59,988 bases of DNA from a virus (IMGVR_UViG_3300025276_003682:1-59988), one strand, 5' to 3'. Shown: positions 24,727-56,534, counted from the stretch's first letter. Numbers and translations are program-made. Notes: generated by a model not told the origin, from the letters alone.

Positions 24727-27700
24727 ATGGCAGAAGGTAATTTAAATAAAGAACTAATACTCTTAAAGAGGCAACTTGAAAACTTAGGTGCTAAACCTAG
24801 AGAAATTGATGCTATAACTGCCGCATTTACGGCATTAACAGGAAATGTAGCAGGAACTGCTGCTGAAATGGAAAGAGTACGTAGCCGTGTAGCACAGTTA
24901 AATACTGAAGCTGAATCACTAAACACTCCTTTTAAAGACCTTTTAGAAATAGTTCAGAAAAATGCAGCAGCTTTAGATAATAATGTTTCTGCAATTTCCA
25001 AAGCTAAATCTCTTCAAAATAAAGTTGTAAGTATTACTCAGGAGTTAAAAATGGATAATGAAGGTATCACCGACCTATCCAAACGTCAGCTCGATACTAA
25101 ATTAGCGACCTTAGAAAAAACTAGGCAGCAATTAGGTGCAAACTCCGACCTTGCTCAAATTCAACTTGACCAGCTTAAGATAACTAATAAATCATCTGAT
25201 GCTGATAAAGCCCGAGCTGTTAAACTTAGTGAGATACTAAAATACCAGGCAGATTTTGATGCAGGATTAGGAGGTATTCTAGCTAGAACAAAACAAAGAC
25301 TTGATTTAGAAAGGTCTATAAATGAAAATATGGGTGTAGCCGGTGCCTTAGTAGGAGGTACTGGTGCATTAATGGAAAGACTAGGTATGAGATCTGGTAT
25401 TTTCCACCAAGCTATGGAAGACGCAAACGAAGAAATGCGTGATATGGCAAAAAACATGGGGGAAAATGTTTCCTTTATGAATAAGCTTAAAATAGCAGCA
25501 AAAGGTTTTTCAACTTTAGCAGATGGCTTCGGCCCTGCATTAAGGGATCCGACAGTTATAGTAGGTAAGATAGTAACCGCGTTCTTTGATGTTAATAAAG
25601 CACAAACAGAATTCATACAGTTAACAGGTCAATCAGCAGCCTCACTCGGTGGAGTAAACACTGAAGTAGCCTCTATGACTGATTTGTTAAAAACAGCAGC
25701 AGCTTTTACTAAACAGACAGGATTAAATGCAGCCGCTATATTTACACCACAACAGATAGGTCAAATAGCAGATGCTACAGAATTATTAGGCATTTCAGCT
25801 GAACAAGGAGTTAAGCTAGGAATGATAATGAAACAGACAGGTAAGTCTGCTGATGATATAGGAAATGCCATATACCGTAACGTAGATGCAGGAATATCAA
25901 ACAAAGTAGTCTACGACGATGTATTGAGTGCTTCTGATGACATAGTTGCTTCATCAGGCGGTAACGTAGAAGCATTAGGTAGAGCAGCATCAGCTGCTAG
26001 AAAGCTAGGTTTAGATTTAAGTAAAGTAAATCAAATAGCTGACGGTTTACTGGACTTTGAAGCATCTATTGAAAGTGAACTAGAAGCACAACTACTTACA
26101 GGTAAAAATATTAACTTAAATAAAGCAAGAGAATTAGCATTAAATAATGATCTTGAAGGAGTAGCAAAAGAATTAGAAAAAAACGGAGCATCTGCAGCAG
26201 AATTTGCTAAAATGAACCGTATACAGCAACAGTCTTTAGCTAAAGCTATGGGATTGTCTAGGGAAGAACTAGGTAAGATGGTATTGACTAAAAAAGCAAT
26301 GGCTAATATGTCTGACGACGAAATTGCAAACGCCAGAGGAATGACCTTAGAACAGTCCAAACAAATGGATATTCAGTCCAGAATTACGAAATCTACGGAT
26401 AAGTTAGCACAGGCATTTGCTCCAATCTTAGAAGCAGTAGTTCCTATAGTAGAAGCATTATTATCAGTAATTAGGCCCATAGCAGCCGCTGTCGGGTATC
26501 TTTTAAAGTTCAAAGCAGTATCCATTGCATTAACAACAGTACTTACTGGAATTGCCGGTTTTTTCGCAGTTAAAAAAATAGCTAATTTTGTCGGTGTAGG
26601 AATAAAAGGGTTTAGTGCAATGAGATCATCCCTAGGCGGACTGGGGAAAGGACTTGAAGGAGTTAAAGGTCTGTTTGGAAAAGCAGGGAAAAGCATAACA
26701 GACTCATTTAGTAAAGGGTTGGGAGACAAAACAAAAGTAGCTTTTGATAAAAATATAAATCGATTTAGAGATCAGGCAACTGGTAAATTAGTATCTGCTG
26801 ATAATGCAAAAAAACTAGGAGCTAAAATGCCTGATAGTTTAAAGAAAACAGGCGATACTGTAGGAGATTTAGGTAAGAAAACAAAAAACGTAAAAGCAGA
26901 TTCAGGAGCAGGCATCAGAGGATTTCTTAAAGGCCTAGGAGATGGATTGGCATCTATAGGTAGACAGATAGGTGATGTTATAAAAGGATCTATAGCAATA
27001 GGAGTTGCAGGATTAGCTCTTGGAGGTTCATTTGCACTTGCATTAAGAATGGTTAAAGATGTAGATCCGGCACAAATGCTTGCATTTGCAGGATCATTAA
27101 GTATGCTAGGACTGACCTTAGCAGTATTAGGAAAAATTGGAGGAAGTGTAATACAAGGAGCTTTAGCAATGGGAATTTTAGGAGCAGCTTTGATACCCGC
27201 AGCATACGCATTTAGCTTACTAGACGGTATTAAACCAGGTCAAATGTTTGCATTTGCTGGTGCTTTAACACTATTAGGATTAGCAGCAGCAGGTTTAGGA
27301 TTCTTATTTCCCTTTATAGCAGCAGGAGCAGGAGCAATAGCCTTACTAGGAGCTTCATTACTACCAGTAGCATTTGCATTTAACATATTAGGTAATTCAC
27401 CTATAGAATCTATTATAGGTAAATTATCCGGATTAGCATCAATAGCACCACAGTTACTAATGGTAGGAGCAGGATTGATGTCTATAGCTGCAGGATTAGG
27501 TATGGTAGCCATTTCAGGAATCGCAGCAATACCGGCTCTAGCCGCTTTATCTGCTTTTGCTTTAGTAGCCTCTCCATTAGCAGCCCTTGGAGGACTGTTT
27601 GGAAATGAAGAAGAAGACAAAGACAACTCAATGGCAGAAATATCATCTAAACTAGATACTCTTATATCGGTAGTGTCAGCAGGAGGAAATGTATACCTAG

Positions 27701-46380: not shown

Positions 46381-47172
46381 ATGGCAAAACATGTAGTTGT
46401 AAGTCTTAGTGGGGGAATGGACTCCTCAACATTATTATTAAGAGCATTAAAAGAATACGATACTGTAACTGGTATTTCATTTGACTATGGTCAAAAACAT
46501 AGGGTAGAGTTAGAAAGAGCTCAAGAATTAATTAATTATCTAGCAGATAAAGGTCATAAAGTAAATTATCGCCAAATTAAACTAGACGGATTAGTAGATT
46601 TACTAGACTCAGCTCTAGTAGAAGGTGGAAATGATGTACCAGAAGGACATTACGAAAATGAAAATATGAAAGATACTGTCGTACCTAATAGGAATAAAAT
46701 ATTTGCTTCTATTGTACAAGCTGTAGCATTATCAATAGCAAATAGAGAAGAAGAAACTTGTGATATTGCTTTAGGTATTCATGCTGGTGATCATGCTGTT
46801 TATCCTGATTGTAGACAAGAATTTAGAGATGCAGATGATAAAGCATTTAGAGAAGGTAATTGGGAGGCTGATAGAGTAGGGTACTTTACACCTTACTTAG
46901 ATACAGATAAATTTGGAATCTTACAAGATGGAGAACGATTGGTTAAAAAGTTGGGTCTTAGTTTCGATGAAGTATACAAAAGAACAAATACTTCTTATAA
47001 GCCTTATCCTTCAGGAAATAGTGATTATAAGTCTGCTTCTAGTGTTGAGAGGATTGAGGCTTTTATTGCCCTTGGCCGAAAAGATCCCGTACAGTATGAG
47101 GATGAAACTGGAGAAGTGGATTACGAAGTAGCGAGAAAACACGTTGAGAACGTTTTATCTGCATATTTATAA
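46381..47172 (+). CDS. queC: 7-cyano-7-deazaguanine synthase QueC, zinc cysteines missing
   Basis: 263 aa. The PP-loop SLSGGMDSSTLL (residues 8-19), FDYGQKHRVELERAQ, and GIHAGDHAVYPDCRQEF are diagnostic of QueC, which converts 7-carboxy-7-deazaguanine to preQ0 using ATP and ammonia. Canonical QueC ends with a zinc site SCY...CGxCxxCxxR; here the aligned text is NTSYKPYPSGNSDYKSASSVER followed by IEAF, so all four cysteines are replaced (mostly by Ser) although VER..AF and the final DPVQYE are kept. Activity therefore needs testing. It is the first pathway gene of the modification island. Confidence 0.85.
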   Translation: MAKHVVVSLSGGMDSSTLLLRALKEYDTVTGISFDYGQKHRVELERAQELINYLADKGHKVNYRQIKLDGLVDLLDSALVEGGNDVPEGHYENENMKDTVVPNRNKIFASIVQAVALSIANREEETCDIALGIHAGDHAVYPDCRQEFRDADDKAFREGNWEADRVGYFTPYLDTDKFGILQDGERLVKKLGLSFDEVYKRTNTSYKPYPSGNSDYKSASSVERIEAFIALGRKDPVQYEDETGEVDYEVARKHVENVLSAYL

Positions 47173-48832: not shown

Positions 48833-48862
48833 GTTGGAGATAAGAAATATTCTGACTATATT
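48833..48862 (+). promoter_or_regulatory. Promoter GTTG-N20-TATATT for the queD/queE operon
   Basis: GTTG at 48833-48836, exactly 20 bases, TATATT at 48857-48862. The riboswitch-like RNA begins at 48881, 18 bases further on, so the element sits right at the 5' end of the predicted transcript. A second TATATT at 48825 lacks a good -33 box. Confidence 0.6.
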
Positions 48863-48880
48863 ATACTATAGGTAATAATT

Positions 48881-48909
48881 AGTGTCGTAGCACCACTTTA
48901 AAAACACAC
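48881..48909 (+). promoter_or_regulatory. preQ1-I-like riboswitch, copy 1 (before queD/queE)
   Basis: Stem AGTG (48881-48884) with CACT (48894-48897) closes a 9-base loop TCGTAGCAC; a 7-base A/U-rich tail (TTTAAAA) leads to C48905, which can pair with G90 of the loop to form an H-type pseudoknot. Loop and tail match the preQ1-I class aptamer (loop UCGCAGUAAC and tail UUAACAAAAC in the Thermoanaerobacter example), one loop base and one stem pair shorter. The tail ends 7 bases before the ATG, so ligand binding should block initiation. The copy at 51971 has identical geometry with two compensatory stem changes. Ligand identity is inferred. Confidence 0.75.
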
Positions 48910-48911
48910 GT

Positions 48912-49136
48912 ATGCAAGAAGAAATACAAAAAGAGTTATGGAATAGAGAAATTAGAAACTCTATAAAAATCGACGGACAGAAGATACCTGATCCGAAATT
49001 ACATCAAAGAATATCTTTTATTAAATCAGCTATAAGAATGGGAGCATGTGCTTTGGGATTCTTTGGTATGTTTGAAGTTGGATTTATTGGACTATTTTTA
49101 GCAGAAATAGTTGGAATTGGTGAAGAATTAGTTTAA
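48912..49136 (+). CDS. Small membrane protein under riboswitch control
   Basis: 74 aa, the first gene after the riboswitch-like leader and 9 bases before queD. The N-terminal half is charged (EEIQKELWNREIRNSIKIDG); residues about 43-68 are hydrophobic (GACALGFFGMFEVGFIGLF), enough for one membrane helix or hairpin. It is too small for a known preQ1 transporter such as QueT or YhhQ. Co-regulation with queD/queE hints at a link to 7-deazaguanine metabolism, which is inference only. Confidence 0.6.
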   Translation: MQEEIQKELWNREIRNSIKIDGQKIPDPKLHQRISFIKSAIRMGACALGFFGMFEVGFIGLFLAEIVGIGEELV

Positions 49137-49145
49137 ATTATAATT

Positions 49146-49610
49146 ATGGGAAAATACCAATCAACAAAAGTATTTGACGGATACTCTACTGTATTTCGTC
49201 AATGGAAAGCAACAACTACACATTGTTCTAAACTACACGGATACGGTGTATCGTTTAAGATATGGTTTGAAGGAGAATTAGATGAAAGAAATTGGGTCTG
49301 GGATTTCGGAGGAATGAAAAGAGCTAAAGGGACTATAGAAAAGATGACACCTAAGGCATGGATGGATTATATGTTTGATCATACCTTTTTAGTAGCTGAA
49401 GATGATCCGTTCAAAGAATCTTTTATGCAAATGGACTTAGCAAAAGTAGCCCAAGTAAGAGTAGTTCCGGCAACAGGAGCAGAGAGCTTTGCTAAATTTA
49501 TTTACGAAAGTATAAATCCATTTATTGAATCAGAAACTGACGGAAGAGTTAAGATAGTTAAAGTAGAATTTAGAGAACACGCTAAAAACAGTGCAATTTA
49601 TGTCGCATAA
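49146..49610 (+). CDS. queD: 6-carboxy-tetrahydropterin synthase QueD
   Basis: 154 aa. FRQWKATTTHCSKLHGYGVS (Cys27, His31), then WVWDFGGMK, MFDHTFLVAEDDP and ATGAESFAKFIYES, follow the pattern of the QueD subfamily common in proteobacteria and phages where the usual HGH is HGY. It converts 7,8-dihydroneopterin triphosphate, made by FolE, to 6-carboxy-5,6,7,8-tetrahydropterin, the second step to preQ0. It lies in one operon with queE (overlap of 11 bases if queE starts at its ATG). Zinc coordination by the altered site is assumed from the family. Confidence 0.88.
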   Translation: MGKYQSTKVFDGYSTVFRQWKATTTHCSKLHGYGVSFKIWFEGELDERNWVWDFGGMKRAKGTIEKMTPKAWMDYMFDHTFLVAEDDPFKESFMQMDLAKVAQVRVVPATGAESFAKFIYESINPFIESETDGRVKIVKVEFREHAKNSAIYVA

Positions 49611-50388
49611 ACAGTTAAAAAGGGTAGAAGACTACGATAAGAATTTACCTATTGTAGAAATATATACAGCAGTGCAGTCTGAAGGTTCAAGAGCAGGGTA
49701 TCCTACAGTGGTAATTAGAACAACAGGATGTACACACAGATGCTACTTCGGTGAAGGAGGATGGTGTGATAGTTGGTATACAAGTATTCATCCGGAAAAG
49801 GGACATTTTAATTTCAAAGATATTATTAAGGCATATGAAGATAATCCTCATATTAAGGAAATGATGTTGACTGGCGGTTCACCAACAATGCATCCAGCCT
49901 TAGTAAACGAACTAACACACTTTGCACATGAAAACAATATATTCATTACTATTGAAACTGAGGGATCTCATTTTCTGCCTACCGATTATCCTATTAATTT
50001 GCTTAGCATTAGTCCTAAGTTTAGTAATAGTGTCCCCGTTGTTGGTGTTGAAACTCCTCAAGGAGCCATTACCGACGAAAGAATGGTAAAACGTCATAAT
50101 AAGTTTAGACTTAATTATGATGCAATAAAACAATCAATTACTTACCATTCTGACTACCATATTAAACCTGTATGGGACGGTAAAGATGAGGGAGCATTAT
50201 CCGAGATTATGGAATGTATTAGTATCTTAGAAGTACCTCAACATAAAGTTTGGTTTATGCCTGCTGGAGATTCTAGAGAAGCACTATTTAAATCTTACCC
50301 CGTATTATTTGATTGGGTTAGAGATAATGGTTATAGAATGACTTGGAGACCGCACATTATTGCTTTCGAAGATCAACGTGAAGTATAG
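49600..50388 (+). CDS. queE: 7-carboxy-7-deazaguanine synthase QueE (radical SAM)
   Basis: 262 aa from ATG 49600; a GTG at 49591 in frame is an alternative. IYTAVQSEGSRAGYPTVVIR precedes the cluster-binding site GCTHRCYFGEGGWCDSWY, where cysteines 44, 48 and 56 have CX3CX7C spacing instead of the usual CX3CX2C; variant spacings are known in QueE. The GGSPTMHP segment is the SAM-binding strand and ETEGSHFLP the next. It contracts the ring of 6-carboxytetrahydropterin to 7-carboxy-7-deazaguanine. Ends sharing one base with the next short ORF. Confidence 0.9.
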   Translation: MSHKQLKRVEDYDKNLPIVEIYTAVQSEGSRAGYPTVVIRTTGCTHRCYFGEGGWCDSWYTSIHPEKGHFNFKDIIKAYEDNPHIKEMMLTGGSPTMHPALVNELTHFAHENNIFITIETEGSHFLPTDYPINLLSISPKFSNSVPVVGVETPQGAITDERMVKRHNKFRLNYDAIKQSITYHSDYHIKPVWDGKDEGALSEIMECISILEVPQHKVWFMPAGDSREALFKSYPVLFDWVRDNGYRMTWRPHIIAFEDQREV

Positions 50389-50522
50389 TGGATAAAAAAG
50401 AGGCATTAGAAATATTAGAAACTATAGCAGAAAACATTAATACATGTTGTGCAATTACTATGGAACCAGATGACGTTTTGGTACTATGTGATAAACTAAA
50501 AATATATATAGAGAATGATTAA
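50388..50522 (+). CDS. Short ORF coupled to queE
   Basis: 44 aa from a GTG whose first base is the last base of the queE stop; it overlaps the next ATG by 8 bases. The protein (DKKEALEILETIAENINTCC, then PDDVLVLCDKLKIYIEN) is acidic and probably all-helical. The packed arrangement supports translation, but the GTG start makes it less sure. No family recognised. Confidence 0.45.
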   Translation: MDKKEALEILETIAENINTCCAITMEPDDVLVLCDKLKIYIEND

Positions 50523-50814
50523 CTTAAAAGAATTAATAGAATCAGCAGGTCCGGATAGACTTGACCACACGGTTACTATAGAAGGAAGCCCAGTTTGGGA
50601 CTATAAAATGGGAGGTGTACATACTGTATTTCTCATATCTGAAGACCCTTGGGAGGGTGTAGAAGAAGAGTACGTAACTTTAAGAGAACTGAGAAAGTAC
50701 ATAGTAGACAGCTTCATACCTTTCGATTCAGTAAAATTTAAAACAGAAGCAGATAGAGAATTAATTAAAAGTTTCAAATGGGAAGAAAAGCAATTAGTAT
50801 TATCACATTACTAG
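50515..50814 (+). CDS. Hypothetical protein
   Basis: 99 aa, acidic, no membrane segment (LKELIESAGPDRLDHTVTIE; EEEYVTLRELRKYIVDSF). It overlaps the preceding short ORF by 8 bases and the exported nuclease gene by 37 bases, so it belongs to the same transcript. An immunity or inhibitor role for the nuclease would be consistent with the overlap but has no sequence support. No family recognised. Confidence 0.55.
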   Translation: MINLKELIESAGPDRLDHTVTIEGSPVWDYKMGGVHTVFLISEDPWEGVEEEYVTLRELRKYIVDSFIPFDSVKFKTEADRELIKSFKWEEKQLVLSHY

Positions 50815-51359
50815 TATTATTACCTTTTGCAGGTGTTAGTCAAGTAATAGAAGTAGAAACAAAGATATACAAGGTACTGTACGATCAAGATTTAAAACAA
50901 CCTCTTGAAGTTAGGTACACAGTACAGTGTCCTAAAGGAGATGCTGACAGAGCAGGAATGGATTTTAGAACCGTTCCTAATGTGATCACATCTAGACCAG
51001 AAGACTACTCTAACAATGTATGGGATAAAGGTCATCTTGCTCCTGCAGCAGCATTTAGTTGTACTAAGGAGATGTTAAGAGAAACGTTTCTATACTTTAA
51101 CTGTGCTCTTCAACATGAAAGTTTAAATAGAGGAGTATGGAATAGGTTAGAACAATTCGAAAGAAGTCTAGCTAACTTCTATCAAGTCGAAGTAGTAATA
51201 GAGGTAATATTTGACGACAAGGTCAGAAGAGTTCCTACAGGAGCAGCAATACCTAAAGAATTTACAAAGACTATAAAGTTTGGTGATAAGAATTTAAAAT
51301 TTAGGTTCCCAAACACCAATACATCAGGAACGAATTGGATTGACTACTTAATAGACTAA
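50778..51359 (+). CDS. Exported DNA/RNA non-specific endonuclease (beta-beta-alpha-metal type)
   Basis: 193 aa. Residues 4-21 are a classical signal peptide (KAISIITLLVLLPFAGVSQ, probable cleavage after Ser21). The mature part has VWDKGHLAPAAAF with catalytic His86 of the D-x-G-H motif and YFNCALQHESLNRGVWNRLE, whose Asn residues complete the metal site, as in the Serratia nuclease/EndoG family. It should act in the periplasm or outside, cutting nucleic acid without sequence preference. Why a phage exports such an enzyme is unclear: attack on incoming competitor DNA or nutrient release are possibilities. Confidence 0.8.
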   Translation: MGRKAISIITLLVLLPFAGVSQVIEVETKIYKVLYDQDLKQPLEVRYTVQCPKGDADRAGMDFRTVPNVITSRPEDYSNNVWDKGHLAPAAAFSCTKEMLRETFLYFNCALQHESLNRGVWNRLEQFERSLANFYQVEVVIEVIFDDKVRRVPTGAAIPKEFTKTIKFGDKNLKFRFPNTNTSGTNWIDYLID

Positions 51360-51362
51360 AAA

Positions 51363-51533
51363 ATGACAGAGAAAGAATTTATTGACTGGTTAAGAGGATA
51401 CGTAGACGGAGTACATACCTACTCAGTATCACCCAAGCAGTGGCAGTACTTAAAAGATAAAGTTAAAAGTATATCTACAGGATCTACTAGGTATACTATT
51501 GATAGTGATAAGTGGACAACTAACATAGCATAA
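51363..51533 (+). CDS. Short hypothetical protein
   Basis: 56 aa (TEKEFIDWLRGYVDGVHTYS, then VSPKQWQYLKDKVKSISTGS), starting 3 bases after the nuclease and ending 2 bases before the phosphoribosyltransferase. The E-F-x-x-W-L-x-G-Y-V...W-x-x-I/L-x-x-x-L/V pattern is common in small phage proteins of unknown role. Too short for the long-ORF list, but spacing and composition support it. Confidence 0.6.
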   Translation: MTEKEFIDWLRGYVDGVHTYSVSPKQWQYLKDKVKSISTGSTRYTIDSDKWTTNIA

Positions 51534-51535
51534 CA

Positions 51536-51940
51536 ATGGAACCAAAGAAAATTTATATTACCTGGGATGAGGTTAACGAATTACTGGATAGAGTATATGA
51601 TCAATGTAAAGAAGATATATCATTAGTAACAGGTGTACCGAGAGGAGGTACAATATTAGCAATACTATTTTCACATAGATTTGATATACAATATACTCCT
51701 TATATGAGTAATCATTACCCCAATATGCTTATACTAGATGATATAGCAGATTCAGGAAAAACATTCAAAGACTTAGAACAAGACTTTCCTAAACCTAAAT
51801 ACGGAGCATTACATTACAAAATCACTTCGGTATTTGAACCAGACTATTACGCAAAGGAAATAGATAAAGACTTTGGATGGATAGTATACCCTTGGGAGAA
51901 AAAAGATTCAAATACTATTCAAAATTATTTGGAGAATTAA
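51536..51940 (+). CDS. Phosphoribosyltransferase-like protein
   Basis: 134 aa. NMLILDDIADSGKTFKDLE is the PRPP-binding signature (hydrophobic strand, D-D, then S-G-K-T loop), and TGVPRGGTILAILFS is the preceding P-R-G-G pyrophosphate loop of type I phosphoribosyltransferases such as hypoxanthine/xanthine or orotate enzymes. The hood region that sets base specificity is short, so substrate cannot be assigned. Lying between queE and folE it might salvage purine bases; a role toward deazapurine intermediates would be speculative. Confidence 0.75.
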   Translation: MEPKKIYITWDEVNELLDRVYDQCKEDISLVTGVPRGGTILAILFSHRFDIQYTPYMSNHYPNMLILDDIADSGKTFKDLEQDFPKPKYGALHYKITSVFEPDYYAKEIDKDFGWIVYPWEKKDSNTIQNYLEN

Positions 51941-51957
51941 AATAAATTGCTTATATT
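51928..51957 (+). promoter_or_regulatory. Promoter TTTG-N20-TATATT before folE
   Basis: TTTG at 51928-51931 in the end of the previous gene, exactly 20 bases, TATATT at 51952-51957. The riboswitch-like RNA starts 13 bases later at 51971. Confidence 0.6.
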
Positions 51958-51970
51958 ATTATTATATTAA

Positions 51971-51999
51971 TGAGTCGTAGAACCTCAAAAAAAACAATT
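51971..51999 (+). promoter_or_regulatory. preQ1-I-like riboswitch, copy 2 (before folE)
   Basis: Stem TGAG (51971-51974) with CTCA (51984-51987) closes the 9-base loop TCGTAGAAC; seven A residues lead to C51995, which can pair with loop G51980 as in copy 1. Compared with 48881-48909 the stem has two compensatory changes (A-U to U-A, U-A to A-U), the loop differs at one position, and the tail length is identical, so structure is conserved while sequence drifts. The tail ends about 11 bases before the folE ATG. Regulation of GTP cyclohydrolase by a pathway product is biologically sensible. Ligand is inferred. Confidence 0.75.
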
Positions 52000-52006
52000 A
52001 AAATTT

Positions 52007-52720
52007 ATGCCTAAAAAGTTTATAGACGGAACAGAATTAGTAAAAGCAGGATATGCAAACGGTATATCAAGTCAATTAGCAGAGAAGCAAAAAGCAGAAG
52101 GACCTGAAGCTAGATTAACTGAACATGAGAAACAAGTAATTATAGAAAGAGCAGCAAATGCTTATGCAGATTTTCTAACTGCATTAGGATGTAACTATAA
52201 AGACGATCCTAATTCATCTGAGACCCCTCATAGAGTAGCAAAAGCATACGTTAATGATTTATGGGCAGGAAGGTATAACCCTTTAGACCGTATTACAGCA
52301 TTTCCTTCAGACGGATATGACGGTATTGTACAGGAGAGTAATATACCAGTAACGTCTATGTGTTCTCACCATCATCAAGCTATTAGAGGTACAGTAAGTA
52401 TTGCTTATATTGCTTCGGAAGATGGAAAGGTAGTTGGACTATCTAAGCTAAATAGAATAGTAGAGCAATTCGGAAGAAGAGGAGCTATTCAGGAACAACT
52501 TACTGTGGCTATACATAATGCAGTAAATAAGATATGTGAAGGTAATTTAGGAGTTGCAGTACAAGTTAATGCTACTCATGCATGTGTATCCTGTAGAGGA
52601 GTTAAACACGGTGGTGCCTCAATGCAAACAGCAAAACTAACCGGAGCATTTTTACACGAAGATTCTGCAAAAGCAGAATTTTATAAGAATATAGAATTAG
52701 CTTCAATTTGTAAACATTAA
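52007..52720 (+). CDS. folE: GTP cyclohydrolase I (FolE)
   Basis: 237 aa. The zinc site MCSHHHQA (Cys119, His122) and THACVSCRGVKHGG (Cys193) with NRIVEQFGRRGAIQEQLT are the hallmarks of GTP cyclohydrolase type IA; the usual CEHH is CSHH here. It forms 7,8-dihydroneopterin triphosphate from GTP, the entry step of preQ0 synthesis. DPNSSETPHRVAKAYVNDLW is the conserved N-terminal helix. The riboswitch-like leader upstream and the MazG-like gene downstream frame it as a regulated unit of the modification island. Confidence 0.93.
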   Translation: MPKKFIDGTELVKAGYANGISSQLAEKQKAEGPEARLTEHEKQVIIERAANAYADFLTALGCNYKDDPNSSETPHRVAKAYVNDLWAGRYNPLDRITAFPSDGYDGIVQESNIPVTSMCSHHHQAIRGTVSIAYIASEDGKVVGLSKLNRIVEQFGRRGAIQEQLTVAIHNAVNKICEGNLGVAVQVNATHACVSCRGVKHGGASMQTAKLTGAFLHEDSAKAEFYKNIELASICKH

Positions 52721-53248: not shown

Positions 53249-53434
53249 ATGATTGATTTAACTAAACATAAGATATATGTAGATAGTCATAAAATGGAAA
53301 TGGTGCCTCTATCTATAGCAATTAAAGCAGTTAAAGAAGCAAGTACTCCGGAAGTAGAAAAGTATGCAGAGGAGTTTGAAAAAGCAATGGCAGAATTACG
53401 TAACTCAATAAACGACATAAAATTAGATGATTAA
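53249..53434 (+). CDS. Short helical protein
   Basis: 61 aa, ATG two bases after the MazG-like stop and overlapping dpdA by 8 bases. The second half is a predicted coiled coil (VEKYAEEFEKAMAELRNSIN). The first half (YVDSHKMEMVPLSIAIKAVK) resembles a small dimerisation unit. No family recognised; co-translated with dpdA. Confidence 0.55.
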   Translation: MIDLTKHKIYVDSHKMEMVPLSIAIKAVKEASTPEVEKYAEEFEKAMAELRNSINDIKLDD

Positions 53435-54227
53435 AATAGCTCATGAAAGTCCTAAAAGTATTTTTAACGATGTACAACAGTATACAGATTATGATTACGC
53501 ATTAGTACATTTATTAGAAGAAGATGAAGAGTACTTAAACCAGTTTAAAGAAGCAGTCAAAAAAGGTAGGGAAGTTATATTAGATAATTCTATTTTTGAA
53601 TTAGAAGAAGCTTTTGATGCTGATAAATTTGCTTACTGGATTAATGAGCTAAGACCAACTTGGTATATAGTACCTGATGCATTAGAAGATACTAAGAAAA
53701 CTATGAGTCAGATGGCTAGCTGGAATATGCACTATTCAAAATCAGTATACGGTAAAAAGATAGGAGTAGTTCAAGGTAAGACATACAAGCAGATAGCAGC
53801 ATGTTACGAATATATGGATAAAATTGCTAATGTAGACATGGTCGCAATATCTTTTGACTATTCGTATTATACCGATTCTATACCTCATCCTAACAAGTAT
53901 GTTAGCTGGATGCTAGGACGTATTAAGCTACTTGGAGATTTAGTAAGAGACGGTATAATAAATGAAGATAAACCTCATCACCTACTAGGTTGTGGACTAC
54001 CTCAAGAGTTTTCTTACTATTCTCAATACCCTTGGATTTACTCCTTAGATACTAGTAACCCTGTCGTGCATGGCATTAAAGGTATACCATACGGTTCAGA
54101 TGGATTATTCTCAAAAGAAAGACAAAAGCTTCATGAACTCATTAATTTTGAAGTAGAAGATACGAATTTAATTCTAAATAATATTCATAAATTTAAATGG
54201 CTTACAAATGGAAAGAGAGCAGTATAA
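53427..54227 (+). CDS. dpdA: DNA guanine transglycosylase DpdA (7-deazaguanine insertion)
   Basis: 266 aa TIM-barrel protein of the tRNA-guanine transglycosylase superfamily. ILDNSIFELEE (Asp53) corresponds to the base-binding aspartate region, WYIVPDALEDTKKT (Asp84) and IGVVQGKTYKQ to the central strands, HHLLGCGLPQEF to the phosphate-side loop and SLDTSNPVV (Asp208) to the putative catalytic aspartate. It lacks the zinc-binding and tRNA-recognition C-terminus of tRNA enzymes, as in short phage DpdA proteins. It would exchange guanine in DNA for a 7-deazaguanine base made by FolE, QueD, QueE, QueC and QueF encoded nearby. Confidence 0.85.
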   Translation: MIKIAHESPKSIFNDVQQYTDYDYALVHLLEEDEEYLNQFKEAVKKGREVILDNSIFELEEAFDADKFAYWINELRPTWYIVPDALEDTKKTMSQMASWNMHYSKSVYGKKIGVVQGKTYKQIAACYEYMDKIANVDMVAISFDYSYYTDSIPHPNKYVSWMLGRIKLLGDLVRDGIINEDKPHHLLGCGLPQEFSYYSQYPWIYSLDTSNPVVHGIKGIPYGSDGLFSKERQKLHELINFEVEDTNLILNNIHKFKWLTNGKRAV

Positions 54228-55622: not shown

Positions 55623-56534
55623 ATGGCAAACGTTAAGAATTATCAAGAAGTAGTTGAGATTGCTTCTAAGCATTTAGGAAAAGTTGGAGGAGACGGGTAT
55701 AAGGATACATACTCTCCTGAACTGTTAGTAAAAGTACCAAGGTACTTAAATAGAGAAGGTTACGGACTTACGTCTGATAGTTTTGTAGGGGTAGATACTT
55801 GGAACTGTTATGAAGTATCTGCAATTACTACTAAAGGACTTCCGGTAGCAGGTATGTTGAAAATAGTTTGCCCTTCAGATAGTGAATATCACGTAGAATC
55901 TAAATCTATTAAGTTATACTTGAATTCTTTTAATATGACACGGATAGGAGATAATTCTGCAGACTGTATGGCAGTTATAGAAGCAAGAGTAAAGAGGGAT
56001 TTAGATGAGTTACTAGAAACTAATACTACCGTTTCTTTTTATGCCTGTGAAAGCGAAGGAATTCCTATTTCTTTTGAAGGATATTCCGATCTCGGTGCTA
56101 TAGTAGACTTAGATCAAATAGACTTTACAGCTTTCCAGTCAGATGCAAATCAATTAGCAATAGAAGATAGAGTTGATGAGCCTGTAGAGATTAAGTTAAA
56201 ATCTAACTTACTTAGATCTAACTGTAGGGTAACTAACCAGCCAGATTGGGGAGATGTATTTATCAAAATAAAAGGAAGAGACATACCTGCAGCAGATGCA
56301 CTTGCTAAGTATATTGTTAGTCATAGGACCGTTAGTCATTTTCATGAAGAGATTTGTGAAATGGTATTTAAACATCTAATGGATGCTTATAAGCCGGATC
56401 AATTGATGGTATCTTGTTTATATACTAGAAGAGGTGGATTGGATATTAATCCTATAAGAGCAACCCACCAAAGTTTGATACCGGAATTCTTTACAAACAC
56501 AGATTTTAGAATCGCTAAAACCTTAAGACAGTAG
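55623..56534 (+). CDS. queF: NADPH-dependent preQ0 reductase QueF (type II)
   Basis: 303 aa, close to E. coli QueF (282 aa) with both T-fold halves. The N-terminal half has ESKSIKLYLNSFNMTRIG (residues 92-109), the C-terminal half LLRSNCRVTNQPDWGDV with catalytic Cys201, SHFHEEICE (His241, Glu242) and LYTRRGGLDINPIRA. It reduces the nitrile of preQ0 to the aminomethyl group of preQ1. Its presence shows that the phage pathway goes beyond preQ0, which agrees with preQ1-type riboswitches upstream and with a formyltransferase acting on the amine. Confidence 0.93.
   Translation: MANVKNYQEVVEIASKHLGKVGGDGYKDTYSPELLVKVPRYLNREGYGLTSDSFVGVDTWNCYEVSAITTKGLPVAGMLKIVCPSDSEYHVESKSIKLYLNSFNMTRIGDNSADCMAVIEARVKRDLDELLETNTTVSFYACESEGIPISFEGYSDLGAIVDLDQIDFTAFQSDANQLAIEDRVDEPVEIKLKSNLLRSNCRVTNQPDWGDVFIKIKGRDIPAADALAKYIVSHRTVSHFHEEICEMVFKHLMDAYKPDQLMVSCLYTRRGGLDINPIRATHQSLIPEFFTNTDFRIAKTLRQ

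Follow-up and report, generated by a model that had tools for sequence, protein, structure and literature searches.

The question raised by the virus record IMGVR_UViG_3300025276_003682 (59,988 bases, in the following the window) is whether a phage controls its own 7-deazaguanine genes by riboswitches. The window encodes QueC, QueD, a QueE-like radical SAM protein, FolE and QueF, and the original prediction, made from the sequence, placed two covarying elements resembling class I riboswitches for prequeuosine 1 (preQ1-I) in leaders at 48881 and 51971, where both were indeed found. We have hardly any doubt that this RNA element is real. With good confidence we propose that it is a compact preQ1-I-like feedback riboswitch of type II, which would repress translation without sequestration of a Shine-Dalgarno (SD) sequence. 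The core facts are an RNA of ∼25–30 nucleotides (nt), a covarying stem P1 of 4 pairs, an invariant G and C able to pair between loop and tail, an A-rich third loop (L3), and a fixed site before the start codons of 7-deazaguanine genes.

Two leader elements in the window

Copy 1 (48881-48910) reads AGUG-UCGUAGCAC-CACU-UUAAAAA-CACACG with an ATG at 48912, and copy 2 (51971-52000) reads UGAG-UCGUAGAAC-CUCA-AAAAAAA-CAAUUA with the folE ATG at 52007. The parts of both copies are as follows.

48881..48884, + strand: copy 1, P1 5' strand AGUG, 4 base pairs (bp) with compensatory change and no fifth pair
48885..48893, + strand: copy 1, loop UCGUAGCAC, conserved alignment columns
48894..48897, + strand: copy 1, P1 3' strand CACU, covarying
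48898..48911, + strand: copy 1, tail with A-rich L3 (48898-48904), C48905 pairing with G48890 and A48908 with U48888, after which 3 nt remain up to the ATG at 48912
51971..51974, + strand: copy 2, P1 5' strand UGAG, covarying
51975..51983, + strand: copy 2, loop UCGUAGAAC with specificity base C51983, conserved columns
51984..51987, + strand: copy 2, P1 3' strand CUCA, covarying
51988..52006, + strand: copy 2, tail with A-rich L3 (51988-51994), pseudoknot C51995 and 11 nt to the folE ATG

The predicted 4-bp stem with two compensated changes was confirmed, as the copies differ at P1 pair 1 (A-U to U-A) and pair 3 (U-A to A-U). The pseudoknot had been expected to end just before each start codon; the conserved C is 6 nt from the ATG in copy 1 and 11 nt in copy 2, and a second pseudoknot pair is present only in copy 1 (U48888-A48908), while it is unformed in copy 2 (U51978 versus U51998). 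Loop plus tail occur twice in the window versus 0.00 times expected from 100 dinucleotide shuffles, and this expectation, together with the loop-and-tail search in relatives described below, rules out a chance origin. A covariance model built from relatives scored 47.5 and 40.1 bits at the two leaders, the next match in the window reaching 14.5. Folding energies of -3.5 and -1.5 kcal/mol (57–62 nt context) were not better than those of shuffles and are therefore uninformative, so that the structure rests on covariation.

Distribution in related phages

FolE and QueD searches of IMG/VR yielded 160 loci, a corrected pattern scan added more, and 83 distinct element instances were gathered in all. 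Had related phages lacked the motif ahead of their queuosine genes, this would have spoken against the prediction, but the opposite was observed: in many related marine phage contigs the element precedes folE and the operon of queD and queE headed by a small open reading frame (ORF). The folE leader is visible in most close relatives, with the stems UGAG/CUCA, UGUG/CACA, GGAG/CUCC, AGUG/CACU and GGUG/CACC and the loops UCGUAGAAC, UCGUAGCAC, UCGGAGCAC, UCGAAGCAC, UUGAAGCAC and, with 10 nt, UUCGAAGCAC; QueD-side copies contribute further loops (UCACAGCAC and others). A search for loop and tail that left the stem free recovered four stem pairs in nearly every such copy before an ATG, and the fifth was almost always absent. 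Cultured Flavobacterium immuto phages carry the element before folE, at an unannotated place. The hairpins UGGUUCCAAGAACCA (L110, L130 and L131) and UGGUUCAGAGAGCCA (L037) were discarded, since they lie inside a conserved coding stretch and not in leaders.

The Cellulophaga phages phiST, phi13:1 and phiSM and the Chryseobacterium phage MA9V-3 have a related queD, and folE was matched too in all but phiSM; these phages showed no convincing element and no Rfam riboswitch at gathering. The search for related switches covered hosts other than Bacteroidota. Among 84,980 species of bacteria and archaea a strict pattern was matched three times, never in the leader of a relevant gene; these matches were taken as chance, although the one in an Oscillospiraceae metagenome-assembled genome (L261:2186-2215), probably fortuitous as well, scores 29 bits with the phage model. 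A canonical Tte-like pattern, applied in one strict form only, had no match in viral contigs.

Covariation and structure of the element

The structure alignment comprises 56 sequences without gaps. Of its P1 cells 99.1% are paired, two of the four P1 pairs show double changes, 33 cells of the whole structure have two-sided changes, and none of 500 shuffles matched the observed covariation. Since loci from the pattern scan had been picked with a fixed GUG/CAC stem, the tree for P1 rests mainly on loci found by protein similarity. On the FolE tree, P1 pair 1 changes at least six times and pair 3 at least nine times, and pairs 2 and 4 never do. The P1-closing pair G4-C14 (Tte G5-C16) is invariant in 56 of 56 sequences, as are the first loop base U5 (Tte U6) and the specificity base C13; A12 is conserved to ≥90%, and AC precedes the P1 3' strand. 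A20–A24, C25 and A26 are likewise invariant, and the loop-tail pair G10-C25 is present in all 56 sequences. A putative second pseudoknot pair would join N8 with the base at C25+3, and these two positions covary (UA 27, UG 7, CG 6, GC 3, GU 1, other 12; 0 of 500 shuffles). This combination stands out among the eight offsets tested on the full set and has the position of C9-G33, which we take to be a pair of the Tte structure.

The strongly conserved loop letters and the fixed position relative to the start codon would also fit an operator for a phage or host RNA-binding repressor, comparable to the targets of T4 RegA or gp43, and the 4-bp stem is weak alone; the resemblance to preQ1-I would then be convergent. 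However, the invariant letters coincide with the preQ1 contacts of Tte, constraint on the A-rich L3 and the CA tail is as strong as on the hairpin, and the element is limited to one pathway, occurs in one or two copies per record and tracks QueF, which makes a protein operator unlikely.

In copies with a GUG stem and a loop ending in CAC (48881-48893 of the window and others), GUGU can also pair with GCAC within the loop, leaving CGUA as a tetraloop. This fold might replace P1 when no ligand is bound; copies with a GAG stem cannot form it.

Comparison with known preQ1-I riboswitches

The phage consensus is NGNG-UCGNAGNAC-CNCN followed by about 7 nt of A-rich sequence and CA, that is, a 4-bp P1, a 9-nt loop and an invariant CA, while Tte reads CUGGG-UCGCAGUAAC-CCCAG-UUAACAAAA-CAAGG (PMC10639078). 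Hallmarks of preQ1-I are the G5-C16 pair, U6, a ceiling formed by C7-G11-C30 and an AC motif that contains the specificity cytosine (PMC11625349), and each of these reviewed features of Tte has a phage counterpart. In the loop of copy 1, U48885, C48886, U48888, G48890 and the specificity base C48893 correspond to U6, C7, C9, G11 and C15 of Tte, whose sequence and contacts are given in PMC10639078 and PMC11625349. The predicted likeness to preQ1-I can thus be traced for the individual residues of the type II aptamer. The claim of one loop base and one stem pair fewer is also correct, and to it an L3 2 nt shorter than that of Tte has to be added.

With type II (Tte, Bsu; RF00522) the phage element shares the plan of an H-type pseudoknot, the G-C pair atop P1, a loop that, like that of Tte, opens with U and C, an AC ahead of the 3' strand of P1, an A-rich L3, a tail of the A29-C30 type, an equivalent of G11-C30, a putative one of C9-G33, and the placement upstream of queuosine-pathway genes. 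It differs in its P1 (4 versus 5 bp), its loop (9 nt, once 10, versus 10–12), its L3 (mostly 7 versus 8–9 nt) and the length of its core up to the conserved C (25 versus 30–31 nt), and in that it lacks an SD sequence, occurs in phages and fails RF00522. Type III (E. coli), whose covariation model is said to be the smallest among the subgroups, has AC at the specificity base in common with the phage element and also the translational control proposed for it, but carries UU next to P1 and uses P2 to pair an AAGG SD sequence (PMC11625349), whereas the phage element has U-C-G and no SD sequence. Type I (Carnobacterium, Haemophilus) shares the class I pseudoknot architecture, but in this type UC instead of AC precedes the P1 3' strand, and two molecules of preQ1 are bound (PMC11625349). 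By its anatomy, as read from the sequence, the element is a compact preQ1-I-like variant that belongs with type II and lies outside the curated threshold, and this compact phage variant appears to be new.

Several observations weigh against this assignment. At a gathering cut-off of 39 bits, RF00522 (PreQ1) has no match in the window; it gives 11.1 bits for copy 2, far below this cut-off, and no match for copy 1. Compared with Tte and Bsu, P1, loop and L3 are all reduced in length, and a 9-nt loop may not be able to hold the ligand. The second pseudoknot pair has only two to five independent pairs on the tree, which leaves its tree-aware support weak, and it is missing from 12 of the 56 sequences, among them the folE copy of the window. 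Moreover, some copies break expected contacts, since UUGAAG has no counterpart of Tte C7 and in UCGUAGCCC the A ahead of the specificity C is missing, and four relatives (L056, L063, L107 and L109) have QueF above the cut-off and no element.

The phage element was also not among the RF00522 matches in its own record, and RF00522 matches in the window at 25110, 26801 and 48119 were dismissed as sub-threshold and inside genes. Conversely, the phage model gave weak matches of 9–13 bits on 17 clostridial RF00522 loci, 6 of 18 matches lying exactly on the PreQ1 site.

The 7-deazaguanine genes and the link to QueF

The genes of the pathway in the window are the following.

46381..47172, + strand: queC (PF06508 3e-38)
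48912..49136, + strand: 74-amino acid (aa) ORF that opens the run of genes behind copy 1; conserved C-terminally in relatives, without a match to any family
49146..49610, + strand: queD, 6-carboxytetrahydropterin synthase (PF01242 3e-15; phrog_2389 9e-41)
49591..50388, + strand: queE-like radical SAM 7-carboxy-7-deazaguanine synthase (PF04055; TIGR03365 3e-15, under its cut-off)
52007..52720, + strand: folE, GTP cyclohydrolase I, behind copy 2 (PF01227 3e-42)
53427..54227, + strand: homologue (78% identity) of Flavobacterium phage immuto gp206, which is annotated as DpdA, DNA 7-deazaguanine transglycosylase
55623..56534, + strand: queF, NADPH-dependent preQ0-to-preQ1 reductase (TIGR03138 2e-72)

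As predicted, copy 2 precedes folE; copy 1, assigned to queD/queE, is separated from these genes by the 74-aa ORF. No match to the phage covariance model was found upstream of queC. The pathway agrees with that for phage 7-deazaguanine DNA modification (FolE, QueD, QueE, QueC, QueF and DpdA), for which RNA regulation is not described (Hutinet et al. 2019, PMC6884629).

Among relatives the element stands before folE, directly before queD or queE, before the small ORF and queD and, in one lineage, before a lipoprotein gene at the head of an operon. Each of the larger records holds one or two elements according to the model. In L211 (8367-8942) folE is replaced by FolE2 (PF02649, 2e-25), a member of another GTP cyclohydrolase family, and the element is kept, which ties it to function and not to a gene lineage.

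QueF was correctly predicted to be encoded by the phage, and the proposed feedback is supported by its presence in all 34 records tested that bear the element (14 of 14 in a first set, 20 of 20 in a second); a DpdA-like protein is present in 14 of 14 records of the first set. Among 24 relatives without a convincing element, QueF was found in 8, some of them distant, and not in the other 16. The association has a Fisher p of 9e-9, which is overstated as the records are partial and related, and its direction points to preQ1, the product of QueF, as the ligand. A riboswitch of the same fold might sense preQ0, the preQ1 deoxynucleoside or guanine instead of free preQ1, since a cytosine specificity base can pair with any guanine-like compound and the loop is smaller than in known aptamers. 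The co-occurrence of the element with QueF rather than with QueD alone argues for preQ1, and we consider another ligand very unlikely.

In L029, L030, L033 and L054 folE has no element; L029, L030 and L054 retain the queD-side copy, and therefore one switch per phage may suffice. The lipoprotein-like gene (L079:579-1172, 197 aa; also L172 and L183) heads a thioredoxin-queD-queE run, with the element loop UCGGAGCAC.

Probable promoters and proposed translational control

A promoter-like motif is located upstream of each copy.

48834..48862, + strand: TTG-N20-TATATT upstream of copy 1, placement read from sequence
51929..51957, + strand: TTG-N20-TATATT upstream of copy 2, pattern match

TTG-N17-22-TAnnTT, presumably a Bacteroidota-type promoter, occurs 3–20 nt before the element in 105 of 112 distinct upstream stretches versus 9 in shuffles. 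A promoter pattern directly upstream would also suit a conserved DNA or transcript-start feature, such as a promoter part or stability hairpin, that senses no ligand. Yet the compensatory stem changes point to RNA pairing, the conserved CA tail would be left unexplained, and in element-free relatives such as L029 a comparable promoter-like stretch precedes folE although the hairpin is absent; such a feature is hardly credible.

An SD-like 4-mer was found in none of 82 leaders. The conserved C is located 4–13 nt before the ATG, and 5–7 nt before it in 48 of 51 non-folE leaders; the leader is too short for a terminator. Flavobacterium johnsoniae has no SD sequences, and initiation is tuned by mRNA structure and upstream A residues (PMC6847099). 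Since there is no room for a terminator and initiation of this kind is SD-free and sensitive to structure, we infer that the ligand-bound pseudoknot most likely blocks the initiation region directly.

Transcription probably begins only a few nt before the element, and the fold would accordingly make up most of the 5' leader. Once QueF has made enough free preQ1, the ligand would pair with the loop cytosine (C48893, C51983) between P1 and P2 and lock an H-type pseudoknot ending 4–13 nt before the AUG. The locked fold would directly block initiation on flavobacterial ribosomes, which make no use of SD pairing and are sensitive to structure and A residues near the AUG, translation of folE and the queD-queE operon would fall, and the preQ1 supply for DpdA-type DNA modification would drop. 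In this way phages of Flavobacterium-like bacteria probably shut these genes off when enough modified base is made. Only tentatively do we suggest that the element defines a phage-specific riboswitch group, either a fourth preQ1-I subgroup or a convergent class, whose ∼25-nt core gates synthesis of a DNA-protecting base by covering the region of the start codon in SD-free mRNAs.

If it binds preQ1, the element is among the smallest natural riboswitches and, so far as our literature search shows, the first described in a phage for preQ1. This search, which mostly did not extend to subscription papers, found no preQ1 riboswitch in a phage, which is not proof, and the word riboswitch does not occur in the main paper on phage 7-deazaguanine modification (PMC6884629). 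The proposed mechanism would then show that a DNA-modification pathway of a phage is controlled by feedback, and that translation can be switched where ribosomes ignore SD sequences. As Flavobacterium phage immuto is cultured and carries the element, direct testing is possible in immuto and its host.

Neighbouring genes

The DpdA name of the protein at 53427-54227, encoded between FolE and QueF, was transferred from the immuto annotation; Pfam gave nothing significant for this protein, and its PHROG (phrog_19058) is of unknown function. The small ORF between element and queD encodes 61–107 aa in the window (48912-49136), L014, L044, L155 and L199 and has no match in Pfam, NCBIfam or PHROG. Its C-terminal stretch is conserved, roughly as PDxKxHQxxSFIKSxIRxxG...EIVGIxEELV, and partly hydrophobic. 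A flavodoxin-like protein (PF02525, 47960-48547) and a DNA/RNA non-specific endonuclease (PF01223, 50778-51359) adjoin the 7-deazaguanine genes.

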